DNA of 64,000 nt, from positions 1-64,000 of the forward strand of contig JAJCYP010000050.1 of the NCBI GenBank assembly GCA_029262855.1, read 5' to 3'. A program made the translations under genes and the position numbers. Below are positions 23,514 through 61,054 of this stretch, one piece after another. This DNA comes from Bacteroidota bacterium (GTDB taxonomy: Bacteria; Bacteroidota; Rhodothermia; Rhodothermales; UBA10348). Positions within the stretch are counted from its first letter, which is position 1. The number at the start of each line of letters is the position of its first letter. The notes under the pieces were generated by a model, which saw only the letters and a program-made list of their open reading frames with translations, did not search any database and had not been told where the DNA came from.

Positions 23514-24934
23514 TTTCCGATACAGAATCGGCCGAATATTTCGGAGAGGATGTCTTCGTTCGTGATCTCGCCAGTGATGAGCCCGATCGCTTCCAACGCC
23601 GACCTCAACTCAAAAGACAAGAGCTCGCCTCCGCTTCCGGAAGCAAGGAGTTCCGCCGTTCTACCCATGGCATCACGCGCGTCCTGCAGATGACGCTGGT
23701 GGCGCTCATTTATCATCCCATCCGAGGAATCAAAATCTCGAAGCGCGCGAGGAAGCACAGTCCGAATTCCTTCCAGCAGCGCTTCCAATTCTTCCGGACG
23801 GTCGATGGCTCTTTTGGCGGAGATGGATACCTGCGGTAGCCCCGCCACAGCACCCGTTCCCGAGATACGCGAATTACGCCCCAAAACCTCTCCCAAATCG
23901 CCCGTTAACAAATCGGCCTTGTTCGCTACCAGAAGCGTGCTGACAGGGCCGTTTTCGCCCATTTGGGCCTGAAGGAAGCTGACTTCTCGATCTCTCAGAG
24001 GCTCCGAAGAATCGAAGACGTATAGTAGCACGTCTGCGGAGGCTATGAGGGCCTCTGTTCGACGCACCCCGTCGAGCTCAATTTCGTCGCCAGAGATGCG
24101 AATCCCCGCCGTGTCGGTGAGTCGGAGCAACAATCCGTCAAGCTCCATCTGCGACTCGACGAAATCGCGAGTGGTCCCGGGGGTACTGCTTACAATAACC
24201 CGATCACTTCCAACAAGCGCATTGAGAAGTGTCGACTTCCCCGCATTGGGTCGCCCGGCCAAGACCACCAGGATTCCGTCACGCCATCGATCGGTGAGGC
24301 TCGCCGCGCCAAGCATTTCCTCGACGGTGCGTCGAAGCGTCGCGAGTAGCCGGACGATCTCCTGCCGATCGGCGAACTCTGCATCCTCCTCGCCGAAATC
24401 CAGCTCGAGTTCGACCAGACCACAGGTTTGCAGCAACTGTGCGCGCAGCTCCGCCAGCCGACGCTTGAGCCGACCCTGAAGTTGGCGAGCCGATGCGCGG
24501 TGAGCGGCCGATGAGCGAGAGTGAATGAGATCAATCACGGCCTCTGCCTGATCGAGGTCCAGCTTGCCGTTCAGGAAAGCCCGGCGTGTAAACTCCCCGG
24601 GCTCAGCAGGACTGGCTCCCGCATCGAGCAGCGCTGACAGCACGGCTGAGGGAACGGTATCGCCACCGTGACAGGTGAGTTCGACAACGTCCTCACCGGT
24701 GGATGATGTCGGAGCACGGAATACCGTAGCAACCGCCTCATCCAGAAGATGGCCACTCGCGTCCAAGACGCGCCCAAACCAAGCGGTGTGTGACTCGACC
24801 GTCCCGAGGTCCCGGGTCCCTTGGAAAACGCGAGACGCAATGTGAACCGCCTCAGGTCCCGATACCCGCACTATCGACAGTGCTGATTCTCCCCGGGCGG
24901 TGGCGATGGCGGCTATTGAGGAGCCGCCACGCAC
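23510..24934 (-). CDS. mnmE: tRNA modification GTPase MnmE
   Basis: GTPase partner of MnmG in U34 modification. The 474-residue protein has the N-terminal folate-binding domain ([20 protein letters not shown]) and a helical domain with the inserted G domain ([24 protein letters not shown]). It ends in the C-terminal CIGK motif. The GTG start at 24934 directly follows the yidC stop; a purine-rich yidC tail (GGAAGAAGAAG) provides the ribosome site. It is part of the rpmH-rnpA-yidC-mnmE-mnmG-rsmG run. Confidence 0.98.
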
Positions 24935-26728: not shown

Positions 26729-27224
26729 GAATCAATTGGTCTGGAGTGAACCCGATTCCGGGAGGAGTTGCACGGCCAAGGCGTCGAACCAATTCGACGA
26801 CCGTTCCCGACAGGTCGTGCGCCAGGCGGCTACCACGGGGGTGCCCACCCGAACCAGCGTCCAAAACCAACACGGTAACCCCAAACTCAGGGGGGACGCT
26901 GCCTTCCATTTCGGACCTCAGTTCGGGCAAAGCCTGAACGCGAAAAGCCTCCCTCAACTGCCGGCGCCGCCGGGTTCGGGAGACTCCACGAAGGTCACGC
27001 CTCGTGGCAACGCCCATCTGTACGCGGGTCCCGGGGGGCAGTTGCGCCGCCTCAACAAGGCGAGCAGCAACGGTGATAGGCCCCGTTCTTACACGGGCTA
27101 CAGCAGGATCTCCTCGACGGAAAAGCGCCCGTATCAGCGGCCGCCTCTTGAGGCGGGAGCTGCGCGGGTATCTTTTTGACTCCGGGAGTTGCCCCCCGGC
27201 GCCGGAAGTCCGGCCCGTCTGCAC
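26718..27224 (-). CDS. rnpA: ribonuclease P protein component
   Basis: Protein subunit of RNase P, which matures tRNA 5' ends. The core segment (SSRLKRRPLIRALFRRGDP, then GVATRRDLRGVSRTRRRRQLREAFR) carries the arginine-rich RNR-like motif that binds the catalytic RNA. At 168 residues it is longer than the usual 110-130, with about 45 extra C-terminal residues. The start is GTG at 27224, one base after the rpmH stop; the first 15 residues are not conserved, so a later start is possible. The position between rpmH and yidC strongly supports the call. Confidence 0.93.
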   Translation of the reverse strand: MQTGRTSGAGGQLPESKRYPRSSRLKRRPLIRALFRRGDPAVARVRTGPITVAARLVEAAQLPPGTRVQMGVATRRDLRGVSRTRRRRQLREAFRVQALPELRSEMEGSVPPEFGVTVLVLDAGSGGHPRGSRLAHDLSGTVVELVRRLGRATPPGIGFTPDQLIRGS

Positions 27225-27225
27225 G

Positions 27226-27381
27226 CTACTTCGTGGCGCGCGTGTCGTGGACCGTCAATACTTTCCGGCCCTTTGCACGGCGGCGGGCAAGCAACTTGCG
27301 TCCGTTCTTGGTGGCCATGCGCGATCGGAAACCGTGCTTGTTTGCACGCTTGCGTCGGCTAGGCTGATAGGTAGGTTTCAT
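27226..27381 (-). CDS. rpmH: 50S ribosomal protein L34
   Basis: A 51-residue, strongly basic ribosomal protein with the universal L34 pattern: [19 protein letters not shown], then [19 protein letters not shown]. The ATG at 27381 gives the family N-terminus; the longer frame upstream is not conserved. It heads the minus-strand run rpmH-rnpA-yidC-mnmE-mnmG-rsmG. In many bacteria dnaA lies divergently just upstream of rpmH; here that position is taken by a tRNA gene instead. Confidence 0.98.
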
Positions 27382-27471
27382 TGCTCTGCGTTCTCGATGG
27401 GATGGCTGCCGCCAGAAAACGGCACAGAGGGCGAAAGATAAGACCTTTTTATCGGTCTCCAACGGCCCCGG

Positions 27472-27501
27472 TTGACTATCTTGTGAATGCCGTCCTATAA
27501 T
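27472..27501 (+). promoter_or_regulatory. promoter for tRNA-Gly
   Basis: TTGACT (27472-27477), an 18-base spacer and a perfect TATAAT (27496-27501), ending 10 bases before the tRNA 5' end. This is a textbook housekeeping sigma promoter in the right place. Confidence 0.8.
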
Positions 27502-27511
27502 GGTCGGCTAG

Positions 27512-27584
27512 GCGGGAATAGCTCAGTTGGTAGAGCATCAGCTTCCCAAGCTGAGGGTCGCGGGTTCGAGTCCCGTTTCCCGCT
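27512..27584 (+). tRNA. tRNA-Gly (anticodon CCC)
   Basis: A 73-base cloverleaf. The acceptor arm GCGGGAA pairs with TTCCCGC, the D arm is AGCTCAGTTGGTAGAGC, and the anticodon stem is TCAGC/GCTGA around the loop TTCCCAA (anticodon CCC). The T arm holds GGTTCGAGTCC. No CCA is encoded. A consensus promoter stands directly upstream. Confidence 0.95.
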
Positions 27585-27662
27585 CATTCCTTGCCACAAG
27601 CGGCCTGCTAACGCATCGGTCCCCCGCCGGTTGCCGCGCCTTCGGTCTGAATCCCCACTATG

Positions 27663-27736
27663 GGGCGGTTAGCTCAGCTGGTTAGAGCACCTGCTTTACA
27701 CGCAGGGGGTCACAGGTTCGAATCCTGTACCGCCCA
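27663..27736 (+). tRNA. tRNA-Val (anticodon TAC)
   Basis: A 74-base cloverleaf. GGGCGGT pairs with ACCGCCC, the D arm is AGCTCAGCTGGTTAGAGC, and the anticodon stem CCTGC/GCAGG surrounds the loop TTTACAC (anticodon TAC). The T arm is AGGTTCGAATCCT and the discriminator base is A. It lies 78 bases after tRNA-Gly and probably shares its transcript. Confidence 0.95.
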
Positions 27737-27750
27737 CAGATTGGATCGGT

Positions 27751-27771
27751 AAGCCTGGCGAATACAGGCTT
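27751..27771. terminator. possible bidirectional terminator hairpin
   Basis: Perfect 7-base inverted repeat AAGCCTG/CAGGCTT with a 7-base loop, placed between the converging tRNA-Val and sensor-kinase genes. There is no T tract on either side, so intrinsic termination is doubtful. Confidence 0.35.
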
Positions 27772-27785
27772 GGGCTCGGTGTAGG

Positions 27786-45557: not shown

Positions 45558-45583
45558 GGTCTGATCCTGGCTGGCAACGGGTG

Positions 45584-45599
45584 ACTTGTCATGTCAAGT
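45584..45599. promoter_or_regulatory. operator-like inverted repeat, minus sulfur operon
   Basis: ACTTGTCATGTCAAGT: a 16-base inverted repeat with one unmatched base pair. It shares CTTGTCAT and CAAGTAA with the site at 32305 in the same alignment. It lies 27 bases upstream of the fused SoeB-SoeC start. On the minus strand it contains TTGACA, but I see no good -10 at the right distance. Confidence 0.6.
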
Positions 45600-45642
45600 A
45601 ATGCCGAAGATGCGCCATGTCGCTGAGAATGGCAAACATTGG

Positions 45643-46227
45643 TCATTTGTGGGGCAGGTCTTCGAGTCGATTCACGTTGGTCAAGGCTCGATCGGGTAGC
45701 GGGACCCGAGTATGAGGCAGGTCCCTGAAAAGAGAGCGGAGCGCGTACTGGCCGTCCCGTATGGCCCGCTCCACGTTCGGTACCAGCGTGCTGCGATACA
45801 ATGCGCAGGTCGGCTCAATCATGTCCTGCCGGGTGGCCACCACGGCCGACACCTCCTCGGTGGCCGCGTCGAGAAGGCGCTGCAGGTGTGCCGACTCCAG
45901 CAGAGGAAGATCCACAGCAAGAAAGAGAACCCACCGCGTGCCCGCCGATCGAAGCGCCGCGTGCAGGCTTCCCATGGGTCCAATCCCGGCGGGCTCGTCC
46001 ACGATTACCCTGCTGGCCCTTCTCAGGGCCCTCCACGCCTGCGGTTCATCCGGATGTTCGGGGGGTAGGCCCAACGCGCTCTCGGTCGAGATCCCAGCCA
46101 CCGTCCGCATGGCGCGTTCCAGGAGCGTGTGTCCCTCCCACCGGAAGCTGGCCTTGTCCTCACCGAATCTGGAAGACCTGCCTCCGGCCGCGAGTAGACT
46201 CAGTACATCTTGGGGAGCAATCGCCAT
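45643..46227 (-). CDS. mobA: molybdenum cofactor guanylyltransferase
   Basis: Attaches GMP to molybdopterin to make the MGD cofactor used by DMSO-reductase-family enzymes. The 194-residue protein has the nucleotidyltransferase N-terminus LLAAGGRSSRFGEDKASF, GPMGSLHAAL, the metal-binding VLFLAVDLPLL, and the C-terminal TNVNRLEDL. It is divergent from the Nudix gene (48 bases) and lies 85 bases upstream of the sulfur operon on the same strand, where its product would be needed by the SoeA-like enzyme. Confidence 0.93.
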   Translation of the reverse strand: MAIAPQDVLSLLAAGGRSSRFGEDKASFRWEGHTLLERAMRTVAGISTESALGLPPEHPDEPQAWRALRRASRVIVDEPAGIGPMGSLHAALRSAGTRWVLFLAVDLPLLESAHLQRLLDAATEEVSAVVATRQDMIEPTCALYRSTLVPNVERAIRDGQYALRSLFRDLPHTRVPLPDRALTNVNRLEDLPHK

Positions 46228-53364: not shown

Positions 53365-54648
53365 ATGATTTCCTTCGATTATAGTCAGTCACTCGGGTTC
53401 CTGCCGAAAGGCGCACAAGAAGCAATGCGGCCCAGGGCCCGAAAGGCGCATAGCTCACTCGTCGAGGGTACCGGCCAGGGCTCGGAATTCCTCGGATGGA
53501 GAGAACTGCTCCTCAGTCCCGATGACGCGCTCATTGGCGACATCGAACAGTTGGCCGTTCGAATCCGGGAGGAGGCGGATGTCTTCCTGTCCATCGGAAT
53601 CGGTGGATCCTACCTGGGCGCCCGCGCGGTGATTGATGCTCTGACACCCTATTTCCGAACCGAAGAGTCAGGACCCGAGATACTTTTCGCGGGCACCGAC
53701 ATGAGCGGCGCCTACCTGAAGGACCTGCTGGCCTACCTCGAAGGGAAGTCTGTCTTCGTCAACGTTATCTCGAAAAGTGGAACTACGCTCGAGCCAGCCA
53801 TCGCCTTCCGCCTCCTTAGAGAGTGGATGGAGCGCACTTTTGATGACGCCGACGATCGCATCATCATCACGACGGACCCACACAAAGGCGCACTCAACGC
53901 GCTTCTCGATACACACTCGTATCGCAAATACGTCATCCCTTCGAACGTCGGCGGGCGATTCTCGGTGATGACGCCGGTTGGCCTGCTTCCCATCGCCGTC
54001 GCAGGCATCGACATCCGAAGTTTCTTTTATGGGGCCGTAGATGCCTGTCGCGAGTATTCCAGCGCGGAGGACAATCCTTCCATTCAGTACGGTGCGCTGC
54101 GTAGCCTCTTCCTGGAGCGTGGATTCAGTACCGAGGTGCTGGCCACTTTTGAGCCGGCGCTGGATGCCATCGGGAGCTGGTGGCAGCAACTCTATGGAGA
54201 AAGCGAGGGCAAGTCTCACAACGGCCTCTTCCCCGTCTCGCTGCGCTACTCCACGGATCTCCACTCACTTGGGCAGTATGTCCAGGACGGGAAGCGCAAC
54301 ATCATCGAGACGTTTCTCCTGGTCAAGGATGATGGAGGCGATATTTCCGTGGATAACGATGAATCAAACCTGGACGGCCTCAACTACCTGGTCGGGAAGC
54401 CGCTAACCCACATCAACCGGAAGGCCTACGAGGGAACGGCGCGCGCCCATATTGAGGGTGGCGTTCCGGTGATGACCCTGGAGATCCCAGACCTGTCGGC
54501 GGACTCGCTCGGAAGGTTGCTGTATTTCTTCCAACACGGCGTTTCCGTCAGTGGGTACTTGCTGCGCATCAACCCATTTGATCAGCCCGGCGTCGAGGCG
54601 TACAAGAAGGAGATGTTCAGGCTTCTGGGCAAGCCCGGCGCCGACTAG
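53365..54648 (+). CDS. pgi: glucose-6-phosphate isomerase
   Basis: Interconverts glucose 6-phosphate and fructose 6-phosphate. The 427-residue product is of the compact bacterial type. Motifs: SIGIGGSYLGARAVIDAL, FVNVISKSGTTLEPAIAFR, GGRFSVMTPVGLLPIAVAG and the C-terminal GVSVSGYLLRINPFDQPGVEAYKK. Starts at ATG 53365, 43 bases from the divergent moeA start. The gene-free stretch after it looks like a replication origin. Confidence 0.97.
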   Translation: MISFDYSQSLGFLPKGAQEAMRPRARKAHSSLVEGTGQGSEFLGWRELLLSPDDALIGDIEQLAVRIREEADVFLSIGIGGSYLGARAVIDALTPYFRTEESGPEILFAGTDMSGAYLKDLLAYLEGKSVFVNVISKSGTTLEPAIAFRLLREWMERTFDDADDRIIITTDPHKGALNALLDTHSYRKYVIPSNVGGRFSVMTPVGLLPIAVAGIDIRSFFYGAVDACREYSSAEDNPSIQYGALRSLFLERGFSTEVLATFEPALDAIGSWWQQLYGESEGKSHNGLFPVSLRYSTDLHSLGQYVQDGKRNIIETFLLVKDDGGDISVDNDESNLDGLNYLVGKPLTHINRKAYEGTARAHIEGGVPVMTLEIPDLSADSLGRLLYFFQHGVSVSGYLLRINPFDQPGVEAYKKEMFRLLGKPGAD

Positions 54649-54932
54649 ATAAAGTGTTCCACGACGCCGTGCTTCCTGGTGTGGGTTATCCGTGGAAAAG
54701 CGCAGTTACTCCACAATGTATGGGGTCTTCCGACAGCCATTGTGTGCGAGGGTGGAGAAGGGCCCCTCTTGCACACAGTCCCCCTCGACGCTTCCCACAG
54801 CAGCCCGGACCGTGAGTAAAGAAAATTCTGGGTTCTCTTGCCCTTGAAGAAACGCAGGCAGCGACGGTCTCATCGACGTGGACTACTGCCCACAATCCGG
54901 AGGCGTGGTTGTGGAGAAGGGTGGTAATCCAC

Positions 54933-54941
54933 TTATCCACC
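54933..54941 (+). other. DnaA box next to the unwinding element
   Basis: TTATCCACC, one mismatch from TTATCCACA. It sits at the edge of the CTA-repeat and AT-rich tract. Confidence 0.6.
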
Positions 54942-54945
54942 TCCT

Positions 54946-54990
54946 CTACTACTATATCCTACTATCTATTAAACCTTTTCTATTAGATAA
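54946..54990 (+). other. DnaA-trio-like run and AT-rich unwinding element
   Basis: From 54946 the top strand reads CTACTACTA, then further TA-rich triplets including CTACTATCTA (54959-54968), and continues T/A-rich to TTAGATAA at 54990. The complementary strand read 3' to 5' gives GAT-GAT-GAT, the DnaA-trio consensus, placed four bases after the DnaA box. Confidence 0.55.
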
Positions 54991-55028
54991 GAGAGTGTGT
55001 GGATTCGCGAACAGGCGCGCCAACCGGA

Positions 55029-55057
55029 TTGTCAGTACCTGCAAGGGCCGTTACTTT
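55029..55057 (+). promoter_or_regulatory. predicted promoter of the universal stress gene
   Basis: TTGTCA (55029-55034), a 17-base spacer and TACTTT (55052-55057), 34 bases before the ATG at 55092. It lies at the right edge of the candidate origin. Confidence 0.4.
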
Positions 55058-55091
55058 GCTTCTGTCAATTGACCCACCCGACGCCTGGACG

Positions 55092-55931
55092 ATGATCAAG
55101 AAGATTCTCGTAGCCCTCGACCCTGACTCTGACACTGCAACGGCCACCCGTTACGCTGTCGAGATCGCCACTCGACACAAGGGGACCATCACCGGTCTTG
55201 CCGTGGTCGACATGGGAAGCATTGCATCCAGCACTCGCGGCGCCGGCATGGGCTCCATGTACTACGCGGGCAAGCTGAAGGACCAGCTGACTTCCGAGGC
55301 CCGGAGCAAGGCTCAGGACTTGGTCGCAGAGTTTGAAAGGTACGTTCAGGAGGCCGGAGTGGCGCACACTGAGCACCTCCAGGAAGGTGTGCCCTTCCGG
55401 AGGATCGTTGAGGACATGAAGTACCATGACCTCCTCGTGGTGGGCAAGGAACCCCACTTCTTCTACAGCCATCCGAAAGAAGCCACCGAAACGCTGGCGC
55501 GTGTGGTTAAGAAGACGGTCGGACCGACACTCATCGTCAGCAAGAAATACAGACCCATCAAGAAGGCCATCATGGCCTACGATGGAAGCGGTGCGGCCGC
55601 GTCGGCATTGCGGTCGTTCGCGCAGTCCAAGCCCTTCGGAGCTGATGTGGTCATCCGCCTGATCTCTATCTACGACGGGTCCGCTTCCGAAGCTGAATTG
55701 AAGTTGGGAATGGCCGCTGACTTCGTCCGGGCCCACGGCATGAAGGTCGAAACTCTTGCTCTGGCCGGCGACGACGTGGAAAAGGTGTTGATGGCGCAGA
55801 TAGAAGACTTCGGTGCCGACCTGGTCGTTGCCGGGGCCCACTCGAAGTCACGCATCCGATCCGTTGCCTTCGGGTCTACCACTTCTTTCCTGGTAGAGAA
55901 CTGCCCGGTTTTGCTCTACCTGGATAGCTGA
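55092..55931 (+). CDS. tandem universal stress protein
   Basis: A 279-residue cytoplasmic protein of two Usp domains (about 1-145 and 150-279). Domain 1 starts MIKKILVALDPDSDT and has DLLVVGKEPHFFYS, where the nucleotide-binding glycine motif is lost. Domain 2 starts KKAIMAYDGSGAAASAL and has VVAGAHSKSRIRSVAFGSTTSFL, close to the G-x2-G-x9-G[ST] ATP motif with Ser for one Gly. Thus one domain may bind nucleotide and the other not. The ATG at 55092 was chosen because upstream sequence lies in the candidate origin and is not Usp-like. The last 16 bases overlap comEC. Confidence 0.9.
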   Translation: MIKKILVALDPDSDTATATRYAVEIATRHKGTITGLAVVDMGSIASSTRGAGMGSMYYAGKLKDQLTSEARSKAQDLVAEFERYVQEAGVAHTEHLQEGVPFRRIVEDMKYHDLLVVGKEPHFFYSHPKEATETLARVVKKTVGPTLIVSKKYRPIKKAIMAYDGSGAAASALRSFAQSKPFGADVVIRLISIYDGSASEAELKLGMAADFVRAHGMKVETLALAGDDVEKVLMAQIEDFGADLVVAGAHSKSRIRSVAFGSTTSFLVENCPVLLYLDS

Positions 55932-58183
55932 GCGAAGGGACTGCAGGTGACGGTGCGCCCCGTGCTGCTGCACCGAATGGATCCCGTCTCGGCGGTAGAC
56001 ATGACCGAGTACCCGCTCTCCACCCAGGTATGAATGACCGATTCGTCCGGCAAGCCAAATCGGTTCTCAGCGGCCACTGAGATGATCGCGAAGCCCGTGT
56101 CTTCCGGGTCGGCCAAGCGGGAAACCAGGAAACGGTGACTACTGGTCTTGGAGCCGTGGTGGGCCACCTTTACGACGTTGGCCTTGAGTAGAGAACTCCA
56201 GGTTTCCACCAAGAACTGCTCGGTTCGCCGCTCGGCATCGCCAAAGAGAAGGAAGGTGATGTCTCCGTGCCTGATGAGAAGCACCACGGAGTCGTCGTTG
56301 GGACTTCCAGGCTGGGACGATTGGGGCGGAGCGAGCACCAGAAGGCGGAGTTCAGTATCCAGATCAATCATATCGCCCGCCTTGGGAGTTTCGAGGCTGT
56401 CTCGATTCAGGATGTTGTCTCTCACGAGAGCAGCGAGACCGCCGTCGTGGTCGCGGTGAGGGTGAGTTATCAACGCCATATCTACCTTCCTCTCCTGCAG
56501 GGCAGCCCGGATGGTCCAGTCGGCGCCCGGGGGACCGGTGTCTATCAGGAGGACCTGCCCTCCGGGAGATTCCACCAGGATGGCATCTCCTTGGCCGACG
56601 TCGAGAAACGTCACGTCCAGTGGGCGCCGTGGGGAGACGAAAGCCGGCGCGAGCACGGTAACGAACACGAGTCCCGTCGTAATGGAAAGACGGCCTGCGG
56701 CGGTTCTTGGGAGCCGGCCAATCAGGAGGACGGGCACGAGCAGAACCGCTCGAAATCCATCCACCGGAATGGACGGAGAGTGGGAAAACGCGCCGGCCCA
56801 CCACACCAGCGCCTGCGCCAGGATGTCAGCAGCCGTAGAAGCTGCCGTAGCGATGGCCGTCAAAGGAGCGAGATGGGCGAAGAGCGCCGCATACAGGACC
56901 AAAGCCGTCAGTGGACCCGCAACCAGGTTGGACAGAAGGGACACCGGAACCAGTTGCCCGAACAGACCCGCGGCGATCGGGCTCGTGAACAGAATCGCGC
57001 ACAGCGTTACCACGATGAGTCTGTGCGACCCACGCACATCCGCCAGCAGTCCGTAGACCGCCAGGACGGACATGGCGAAGCCGGCGCTGAGCATACCCTC
57101 CGGCCGAAGAACCAGGAAAGCCAGGGCCGTCAGCCCGAGGGCGTGCATTCCAATCAGCCCCCTGCGACCCAGTCCGCGTCGGCCCAGGATGATAGAGGCC
57201 ATGACAGCCGCCCGAACCGTGGAAGGAGATCCGCCTGCGGCGAAGGCAAAGAGCGAGACGATGACGATGGTGATGCACCCGCGCAGGATGACCGACCCGC
57301 GCGGCCCCAACCCACACCGTGTGCAGATCCCGCCGACCAGTACATAGAGGCCCCAGCCGATTACCCCGACGTGGAATCCGGAGATGGCCAGGAGGTGAGC
57401 CAGTCCTGCGTCCCGAAAGGCATTCTGGGTCTCTCTCGCCATTCGTCGTCGATTCCCCGTCGTCATGGCCGCGATAACCCCGTATCGGTCAAGGCCCTGG
57501 AATAGTCGCGCATGACGCCTTCGAAGCCCGTCTCGGATAGCCGACGGCCTCGCTCCCAGGAATCCCACCAGACTCGGCGATTGGTGCGAACTCAGGGTGC
57601 CACCGACCCGGTTGAGGCGGGCGAGAGCGCCGCGATCAACGAGGCCCGGTCCCCGCGGAGGGCCGCCCGGATCGAGAACCCCTTGGACACTGACCAGGCG
57701 CTGCGGCAAGTGGAGGTAGGGGCGGACGGTCACCCGGGTTACCTGCCAAGGGCCTAAACTGCGGCATCGGCCCTGGAGCACACCTTCCAGGATCTCTCCG
57801 ACGCATAGACCCTCTCCAGCCGGAACGGGGGCGGTGGGCCGGACAGAGCAGAACGCTAAGCCGGCGAAGACCATGCTGGCGAGTAGGGCCCGCTTCAGCG
57901 GAGTTGGTACGTGGAGGACCAGCCGCCCGGGTACCCAAAGGGCCAACACGCAGACCACCCCAAGAACCACCAACGCTCCCCAACCTGCGTCGAGAAACAG
58001 TGGGGACAGCAGGATTCCCGCGACCGTCCCGGCCAGGGCTGCACCGCATCGACTGGGCCCGTTTCGCATACGAAAGGAGGCACGGAGGGCGCCGTCCGCA
58101 ACACGGCCGCCCGGGGCAGTCCCCACCATGGCCAGCCCCACACAATCGCCCAATAAATTCGTCACCGGCAGATTGACCCGCAT
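55916..58183 (-). CDS. comEC: ComEC/Rec2-family DNA uptake channel protein
   Basis: A 755-residue inner-membrane protein that passes single-stranded DNA into the cell during transformation. N-terminal helices and an OB-like loop come first. The competence domain follows (HLLAISGFHVGVIGWGLYVL and GGSPSTVRAAVMASI). The C-terminal metallo-beta-lactamase-like domain has FLDVGQGDAILVESPGG, THPHRDHDGG and KVAHHGSKTSS. Size and order fit ComEC. Divergent from nusB, with 62 bases between. No other competence genes are near. Confidence 0.95.
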   Translation of the reverse strand: MRVNLPVTNLLGDCVGLAMVGTAPGGRVADGALRASFRMRNGPSRCGAALAGTVAGILLSPLFLDAGWGALVVLGVVCVLALWVPGRLVLHVPTPLKRALLASMVFAGLAFCSVRPTAPVPAGEGLCVGEILEGVLQGRCRSLGPWQVTRVTVRPYLHLPQRLVSVQGVLDPGGPPRGPGLVDRGALARLNRVGGTLSSHQSPSLVGFLGARPSAIRDGLRRRHARLFQGLDRYGVIAAMTTGNRRRMARETQNAFRDAGLAHLLAISGFHVGVIGWGLYVLVGGICTRCGLGPRGSVILRGCITIVIVSLFAFAAGGSPSTVRAAVMASIILGRRGLGRRGLIGMHALGLTALAFLVLRPEGMLSAGFAMSVLAVYGLLADVRGSHRLIVVTLCAILFTSPIAAGLFGQLVPVSLLSNLVAGPLTALVLYAALFAHLAPLTAIATAASTAADILAQALVWWAGAFSHSPSIPVDGFRAVLLVPVLLIGRLPRTAAGRLSITTGLVFVTVLAPAFVSPRRPLDVTFLDVGQGDAILVESPGGQVLLIDTGPPGADWTIRAALQERKVDMALITHPHRDHDGGLAALVRDNILNRDSLETPKAGDMIDLDTELRLLVLAPPQSSQPGSPNDDSVVLLIRHGDITFLLFGDAERRTEQFLVETWSSLLKANVVKVAHHGSKTSSHRFLVSRLADPEDTGFAIISVAAENRFGLPDESVIHTWVESGYSVMSTAETGSIRCSSTGRTVTCSPFAQLSR

Positions 58184-59961: not shown

Positions 59962-61054
59962 GCCGCTTCGCTGTGGAATTGTCGGACTCCCCAACGTGGG
60001 CAAGTCAACGTTGTTCAACGCCCTGTCTGGTGCGGGTGCAGAGAACGCAAACTACCCCTTTTGCACCATCGATCCGAATGTGGGGATTGTCCCGGTGCCT
60101 GATGTGCGGTTGGAAACCATCGCCGAAATGGCCAAATCGGCCAAGGTGATTCCGACCGTCATCGAGTTCGTGGACATCGCCGGCCTCGTAGCCGGAGCGT
60201 CCAAGGGCGAGGGTCTGGGCAACCAGTTCCTGGGCCACATTCGGGAGGTGGATGCCATCGTCCATGTGGTCCGATGCTTTACGGATGAGAACGTGGTTCA
60301 TGTCTCCGGCAAGGTAGATCCCGCCTCGGACATCGAGATCATCGAGACCGAACTCCTGCTGAAGGACCTGGATTCGATCGAGAAGCGAATCGAGCGCACC
60401 AAGAAGGCGGCCCGTGGCGGCGACAAGAGGCTTAAAGAGGAAGCAGAGTTCTACGAGCGAATCCGCGACTATGTGGCAGACGGAAAGCCGGTTCGCGGGT
60501 TCAAGGTCAAGGATGGCGAAGAGGATTGGCTGGAATCGCTGTTTCTGCTGTCCGACAAGCCGGTGCTTTACGCCGCCAACGTGGGCGAGGCGGACCTGCC
60601 CGACGGCAATGACTACGTGCGAGAGGTAGAACGCATCGCCGCCGAGGAGGGCGCCCGCGTTGTGATTGTGTCGGCCGAATTGGAGGCGCAGGTCGCAGAG
60701 CTCGAGGACCATGAGCGCGCAGAGTTTCTCGAGGACCTTGGCCTGAAGGGGTCTGGCCTGGAGCGCCTGATCCAGAACACGTACACACTCTTGAAGCTGG
60801 AGACCTTCTTCACGGTGGGCCCCAAGGAGGCACGTGCCTGGACCATCGAGCACGGCACCAAAGCGCCCGCCGCGGCCGGGACCATCCACAGCGACTTCGA
60901 GCGTGGATTCATTCGCGCCGAGACCATCAAGTACGCCGATTTCCTGACCCACGGCGGGGAAACGGGAGCCCGCGGCGCCGGGGCGATGCGGTCCGAGGGC
61001 AAGGAGTACACAGTCAAGGACGGCGACATCATGCTCTTCCGCTTCAACGTTTAG
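59960..61054 (+). CDS. ychF: ribosome-binding ATPase/GTPase YchF
   Basis: Obg-family P-loop NTPase (OLA1 homologue) that binds ribosomes and prefers ATP. The 364-residue product has GLPNVGKS (9-16), [39 protein letters not shown], and the C-terminal TGS domain ending [13 protein letters not shown]. The ATG at 59960 is fixed by the family N-terminus MPLRCGIVG. Its ribosome site, if any, lies inside the divergent gene. Confidence 0.97.

Follow-up and report, generated by a model that had tools for sequence, protein, structure and literature searches.

The closest described system is the BUS of the Bacillus subtilis oriC (PMC6669920; survey PMC8287927), in which tandem DnaA boxes, a short GC-rich spacer, CTA trios (3'-GAT-5') and an AT tract follow each other. 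In B. subtilis DnaA, the middle adenine of a trio is read by Asn187 (PMC10721633). DoriC and Ori-Finder origins (PMC6323995, PMC10225481) are predicted from skew and boxes, and show a skew minimum together with clustered DnaA boxes between genes. Nothing direct was found in the open literature on a described oriC in Rhodothermus or Salinibacter, or on Bacteroidota with two dnaA genes. Here we analysed a window of 64,000 nucleotides from a Rhodothermales bacterium, taken from a 74.7-kb contig (C50) of a 4.74-Mb assembly in 146 contigs. The 443-bp gap between the pgi stop and the usp start is predicted with high confidence to be the chromosomal oriC of this bacterium, with a trio-type unwinding unit that is detached from dnaA (Table 1). 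The prediction is based on the anatomy of the element, its uniqueness in the genome, its conservation and synteny, and the coincidence with a skew switch in relatives. The first-pass annotation had proposed a candidate replication origin here, which is now supported by the skew in relatives and by conservation of the module across the order. Its placement between pgi and a universal stress gene agrees with the coordinates and with the Pfam domains of both genes.

Table 1. Features of the predicted origin region and its flanking genes (window coordinates; n/9, matches to the DnaA-box consensus)
Feature	Position	Strand	Remarks
pgi (phosphoglucose isomerase)	53365–54648	+	Left flank; Pfam PF00342 PGI, E 3.5e-24; synteny
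Predicted oriC-bearing intergenic region	54649–55091		Box enrichment; unique whole-genome profile match inside
Distal DnaA-box-like site TAACCCACA	54680–54688	-	7/9
Distal DnaA-box-like site TTTTCCACG	54691–54699	-	7/9
DnaA-box-like site TACTCCACA	54707–54715	+	7/9
DnaA-box-like site TTCTCCACC	54751–54759	-	7/9
DnaA box TTCTCCACA	54910–54918	-	8/9
Tandem DnaA boxes TAATCCACT / TTATCCACC	54925–54941	+	7/9 and 8/9; 8-bp phase; putative platform of the unwinding unit
Spacer TCCT	54942–54945	+	4 bp, as in 33/35 loci
DnaA-trios CTACTACTA	54946–54954	+	3'-GAT-5' x3 on the other strand
Putative AT-rich unwinding tract	54955–54990		Second CTACTA inside; lowest GC of the contig
Convergent DnaA box GAATCCACA	54998–55006	-	+52 relative to the trio start, beyond the AT tract
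Putative usp promoter	55029–55058	+	TTG 55029–55031, TACTTTG 55052–55058; apart from the origin core
usp (universal stress protein)	55092–55931	+	Right flank; ATG at 55092; Pfam PF00582 Usp, E 5.9e-19
comEC-like competence protein	55916–58183	-	Next conserved neighbour; Pfam PF03772, E 2.1e-37; synteny

Eight 9-mers in the gap match TTATCCACA at 7/9 or better, where 1.01 are expected, and none of 1000 dinucleotide-preserving shuffles of the gap reached this number. Two of them match at 8/9 or better, against 0.08 expected. The gap is also the densest 443-bp stretch of the window in TCCAC/GTGGA. The several box-like 9-mers reported at first pass thus form a cluster beyond chance. Box positions recur across the order. 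The sites TAACCCACA and TTTTCCACG lie near a zone at -280 to -251 from the trios, where about 25–40% of relatives carry reverse boxes, and TACTCCACA lies near a forward box that recurs in relatives at about -220 to -240. In 37% of them a reverse box, comparable to TTCTCCACA, is found at -40 to -31.

The unwinding unit itself begins with two tandem boxes that share one base, the second of which, TTATCCACC, occupies 54933–54941. The order described earlier, with this box followed four bases on by CTACTACTA and then by an AT-rich tract, was reproduced together with its coordinates. Measured against the definition of a DnaA-trio unit (boxes with at most two mismatches, a spacer of 0–16 bp, at least three trios 3'-NAN-5'), TTATCCACC has one mismatch and its tandem partner two, the spacer has 4 bp and three CTA are consecutive. 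To be noted, the platform boxes are imperfect here, which counts against the origin reading. The 60-mers with the lowest GC content of the whole contig (30%) begin at 54931–54945, so that an AT-rich element lies beside the boxes. The combination of box, spacer and three CTA occurs once in the contig. The first-pass claim that this gap is the only large gene-free stretch did not hold, since longer candidate gaps remain after gene calling with a crude hexamer method. These rough calls leave stretches without a clear gene, for example at 23514–24934, 26729–27785 (two tRNAs) and 45558–46209. A search against Rfam returned two tRNAs and nothing else.

Among the named relatives, metagenome bins of Rhodothermales come closest; Rhodothermus and Roseithermus are more distant. 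Nearly all relatives share the string of tandem box, 4 bp, CTACTA(CTA) and AT tract upstream of usp, and the tandem arrangement of the boxes is present in nearly all of them. The trio core CTAnTA is invariant in an alignment of 22 relatives. A sequence-only profile built from 22 relatives, with the window left out, gives a single match in the 4.74-Mb genome (54927–54976, 29.6 bits, E 2.6e-6). The same profile matches 50 of 60 relatives, mostly once each, and 70 of 296 genomes of a phylum-wide draw, most of them of the same class. The gene order across the order is moeA–pgi–element–usp–comEC–nusB–apaH–ychF, with pgi as the conserved neighbour throughout Rhodothermales and the element situated either ahead of usp or behind pgi. 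In five relatives (G058, G032 (Roseithermus), G007, G017 and G020) usp is absent beside the element, which still lies directly behind pgi. Conservation of the gap, a check named in the first-pass annotation, was thus examined in relatives, and the order as a whole keeps the boxes, the 4-bp spacer, the trios and the AT tract. In Balneolaceae of the same class, a module with tandem boxes, 4-bp spacer and trios is found at another gene locus (L277–L289), in most loci read with dtd on one side and a DinB-like gene and then purM on the other. The occurrence of the same module at a different gene locus is what one would expect of an origin, and not of an element that regulates a gene.

GC skew, another check named there, was taken from contiguous stretches and genome-wide samples of relatives, as the assembly of the host is too fragmented. 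The cumulative skew minimum lies 284 bp from the element in G028 (Rhodothermus-like), 1063 bp in G058 and 3050 bp in G001 (same genus). In G028, 9/9 samples to the right of the element are positive and 12/12 to the left are negative; in G058, 9/10 samples on each side of the element have the corresponding sign. The switch between leading and lagging strand is therefore found at the site in these relatives. The skew of G036 and G032 is noisy around the element, and its best sampled split falls at a distance of about 0.1 Mb or more, which is a coarse agreement. The opposite switch is found about half a chromosome from the element in G028, G032 and G058. Counting against the origin reading, the cumulative minimum of the host contig itself lies at 60075, 5 kb from the gap.

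DnaA regulates genes in other bacteria, and the boxes might tie the transcription of usp (or pgi) to the cell cycle instead of marking an origin. In most relatives the module immediately precedes usp, which would fit such a role. However, the element is not tied to the presence of usp. It outlives this gene, staying beside pgi where usp is lost and, in the various Rhodothermales families, keeping its place between pgi and comEC, so it is not a usp promoter. A separate promoter-like block lies nearer to usp, and in an alignment of the genus a TTTACTTT-like block is conserved there. Its TTG and TACTTTG elements presumably represent a promoter of the Bacteroidota type, and this block is putatively usp's own promoter. 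Together with the skew switch at the element and the other neighbours of the module in Balneolaceae, this makes a regulatory role in place of an origin very unlikely.

A DnaA-titrating or -reactivating site (datA/DARS-like) near the origin, but not at it, would equally show a box cluster distant from dnaA. We consider this still less probable, as trios and AT tract are the anatomy of unwinding, no other such site exists in the genome, and the skew minimum falls within 0.3–3 kb in three relatives. That box-like words have gathered in the gap by chance could be argued from their degeneracy and from the shortness of 443 bp, but the shuffles and the order-wide conservation leave this explanation with hardly any credibility. 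A plasmid-like origin was also considered and rejected, with no match among 72,556 plasmid records. The chromosomal oriC thus remains the preferred reading.

A further box facing the trios is found across the AT tract. A reverse box of at least 7/9, located 38–78 bp beyond the trio start, is present in 30 of 35 distinct Rhodothermales loci, while a forward box occurs in the same stretch in 2/35 and in the control window in 1/35. Within the genus, the sequence TAAGAGAGTsTGTGGATTC at this box is nearly invariant. In Balneolaceae the convergent box is found in 13/13 loci at 47–50 bp with 8–9 of 9 matches, where several of the loci are near-identical and reverse boxes are commoner further out too (control 7/13). 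The offsets cluster at 47–52, with few at 60–62 and one at 70. The larger offsets would correspond to one or two additional helical turns, a pattern that is suggestive only, because related rows were counted and three ambiguous loci had been excluded from the tally by hand. The counts do not support a further trio unit facing inward from the convergent box, as the mean number of CTA there is 0.27 compared with 2.60 on the forward side. That such a box recurs some 50 bp past the trios in two orders and at two gene loci was unexpected.

Consistent with the first-pass remark that no dnaA adjoins the gap, both dnaA genes of the host are located on other contigs; a dnaA-linked origin would have dnaA directly adjacent. 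They encode two full-length DnaA proteins, on contigs C33 (L002) and C65 (L003). Where dnaA and element are on one contig, their distance is usually 12–110 kb and overall 12–230 kb, with the second module of G051 excepted (12 kb in G038, 31 kb in G028, 35 kb in G001, 70 kb in G036, about 150 kb in G034 and 230 kb in Roseithermus). In G051 a divergent dnaA lies directly beside a second trio-type module (C1:2418–3894), with the usual pgi–usp locus also present; this module possibly belongs to a second replicon or to contamination. The two full-length DnaA paralogs are, unexpectedly, fixed across the host's Rhodothermales family. Extra dnaA copies are observed in some other families too. In a tree with some long branches, the 24 rows of the second DnaA from across the family group as a single clade with 100/100 support, and this paralog is therefore old and vertically inherited. 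The helix-turn-helix signature GGRDHSTV is found in both proteins, and their alignment with the solved B. subtilis DnaA (8btg) extends through the helix-turn-helix. In this alignment, Asn187 corresponds to Thr in DnaA1 and to Asn in DnaA2, and neither protein keeps Arg202.

By analogy with the work on B. subtilis (PMC6669920, PMC10721633), DnaA would fill the distal box array, and the tandem pair would serve as a platform for a DnaA-ATP filament reaching across the 4-bp spacer onto the trios. The filament would capture the 3'-GAT-5' strand and melt the AT tract, where the helicase would be loaded. The convergent box at 54998 would then mark the far edge of the melted tract. It may bind further DnaA, which would bound or stabilise the bubble or help to load a second helicase. 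More speculatively, the origins of this class might be bracketed, with the unwinding tract held between the trio platform and a convergent box some 50 bp away, or further by one or two turns. DnaA may close the bubble on both sides and load two helicases asymmetrically, and in this family the two ancient DnaA paralogs may share the work, one per side. We regard this extended scheme as a tentative and rather doubtful proposal.

The predicted origin of a large, mostly uncultured order is hereby placed without reference to dnaA. Growth-rate (peak-to-trough) estimates from metagenomes and the orientation of genomes can thus be anchored at pgi–oriC–comEC. The gene locus of the trio-type unwinding unit differs between two orders of the same class, and two features come to light, the convergent box on the other side of the putative melted tract and the two fixed DnaA paralogs that face a single origin. 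The element is of an ordinary kind in an informative place, a predicted oriC with a trio-type unit. It resembles the DoriC and Ori-Finder origins in its skew minimum and intergenic box cluster, but it was found via conservation of the module and not via the presence of dnaA. The origin-like module of Balneolaceae has the same tandem boxes, 4-bp spacer, trios and a convergent box at +47 to +50, whereas its context is dtd/DinB-like/purM and not pgi–comEC. Compared with the B. subtilis BUS, the order and orientation of the elements are identical, as judged here from the sequence. In contrast to B. subtilis, the unit lies away from dnaA, between pgi and comEC in Rhodothermales, and the BUS as defined (PMC8287927) is without the convergent box that is found here about 50 bp beyond the trios.
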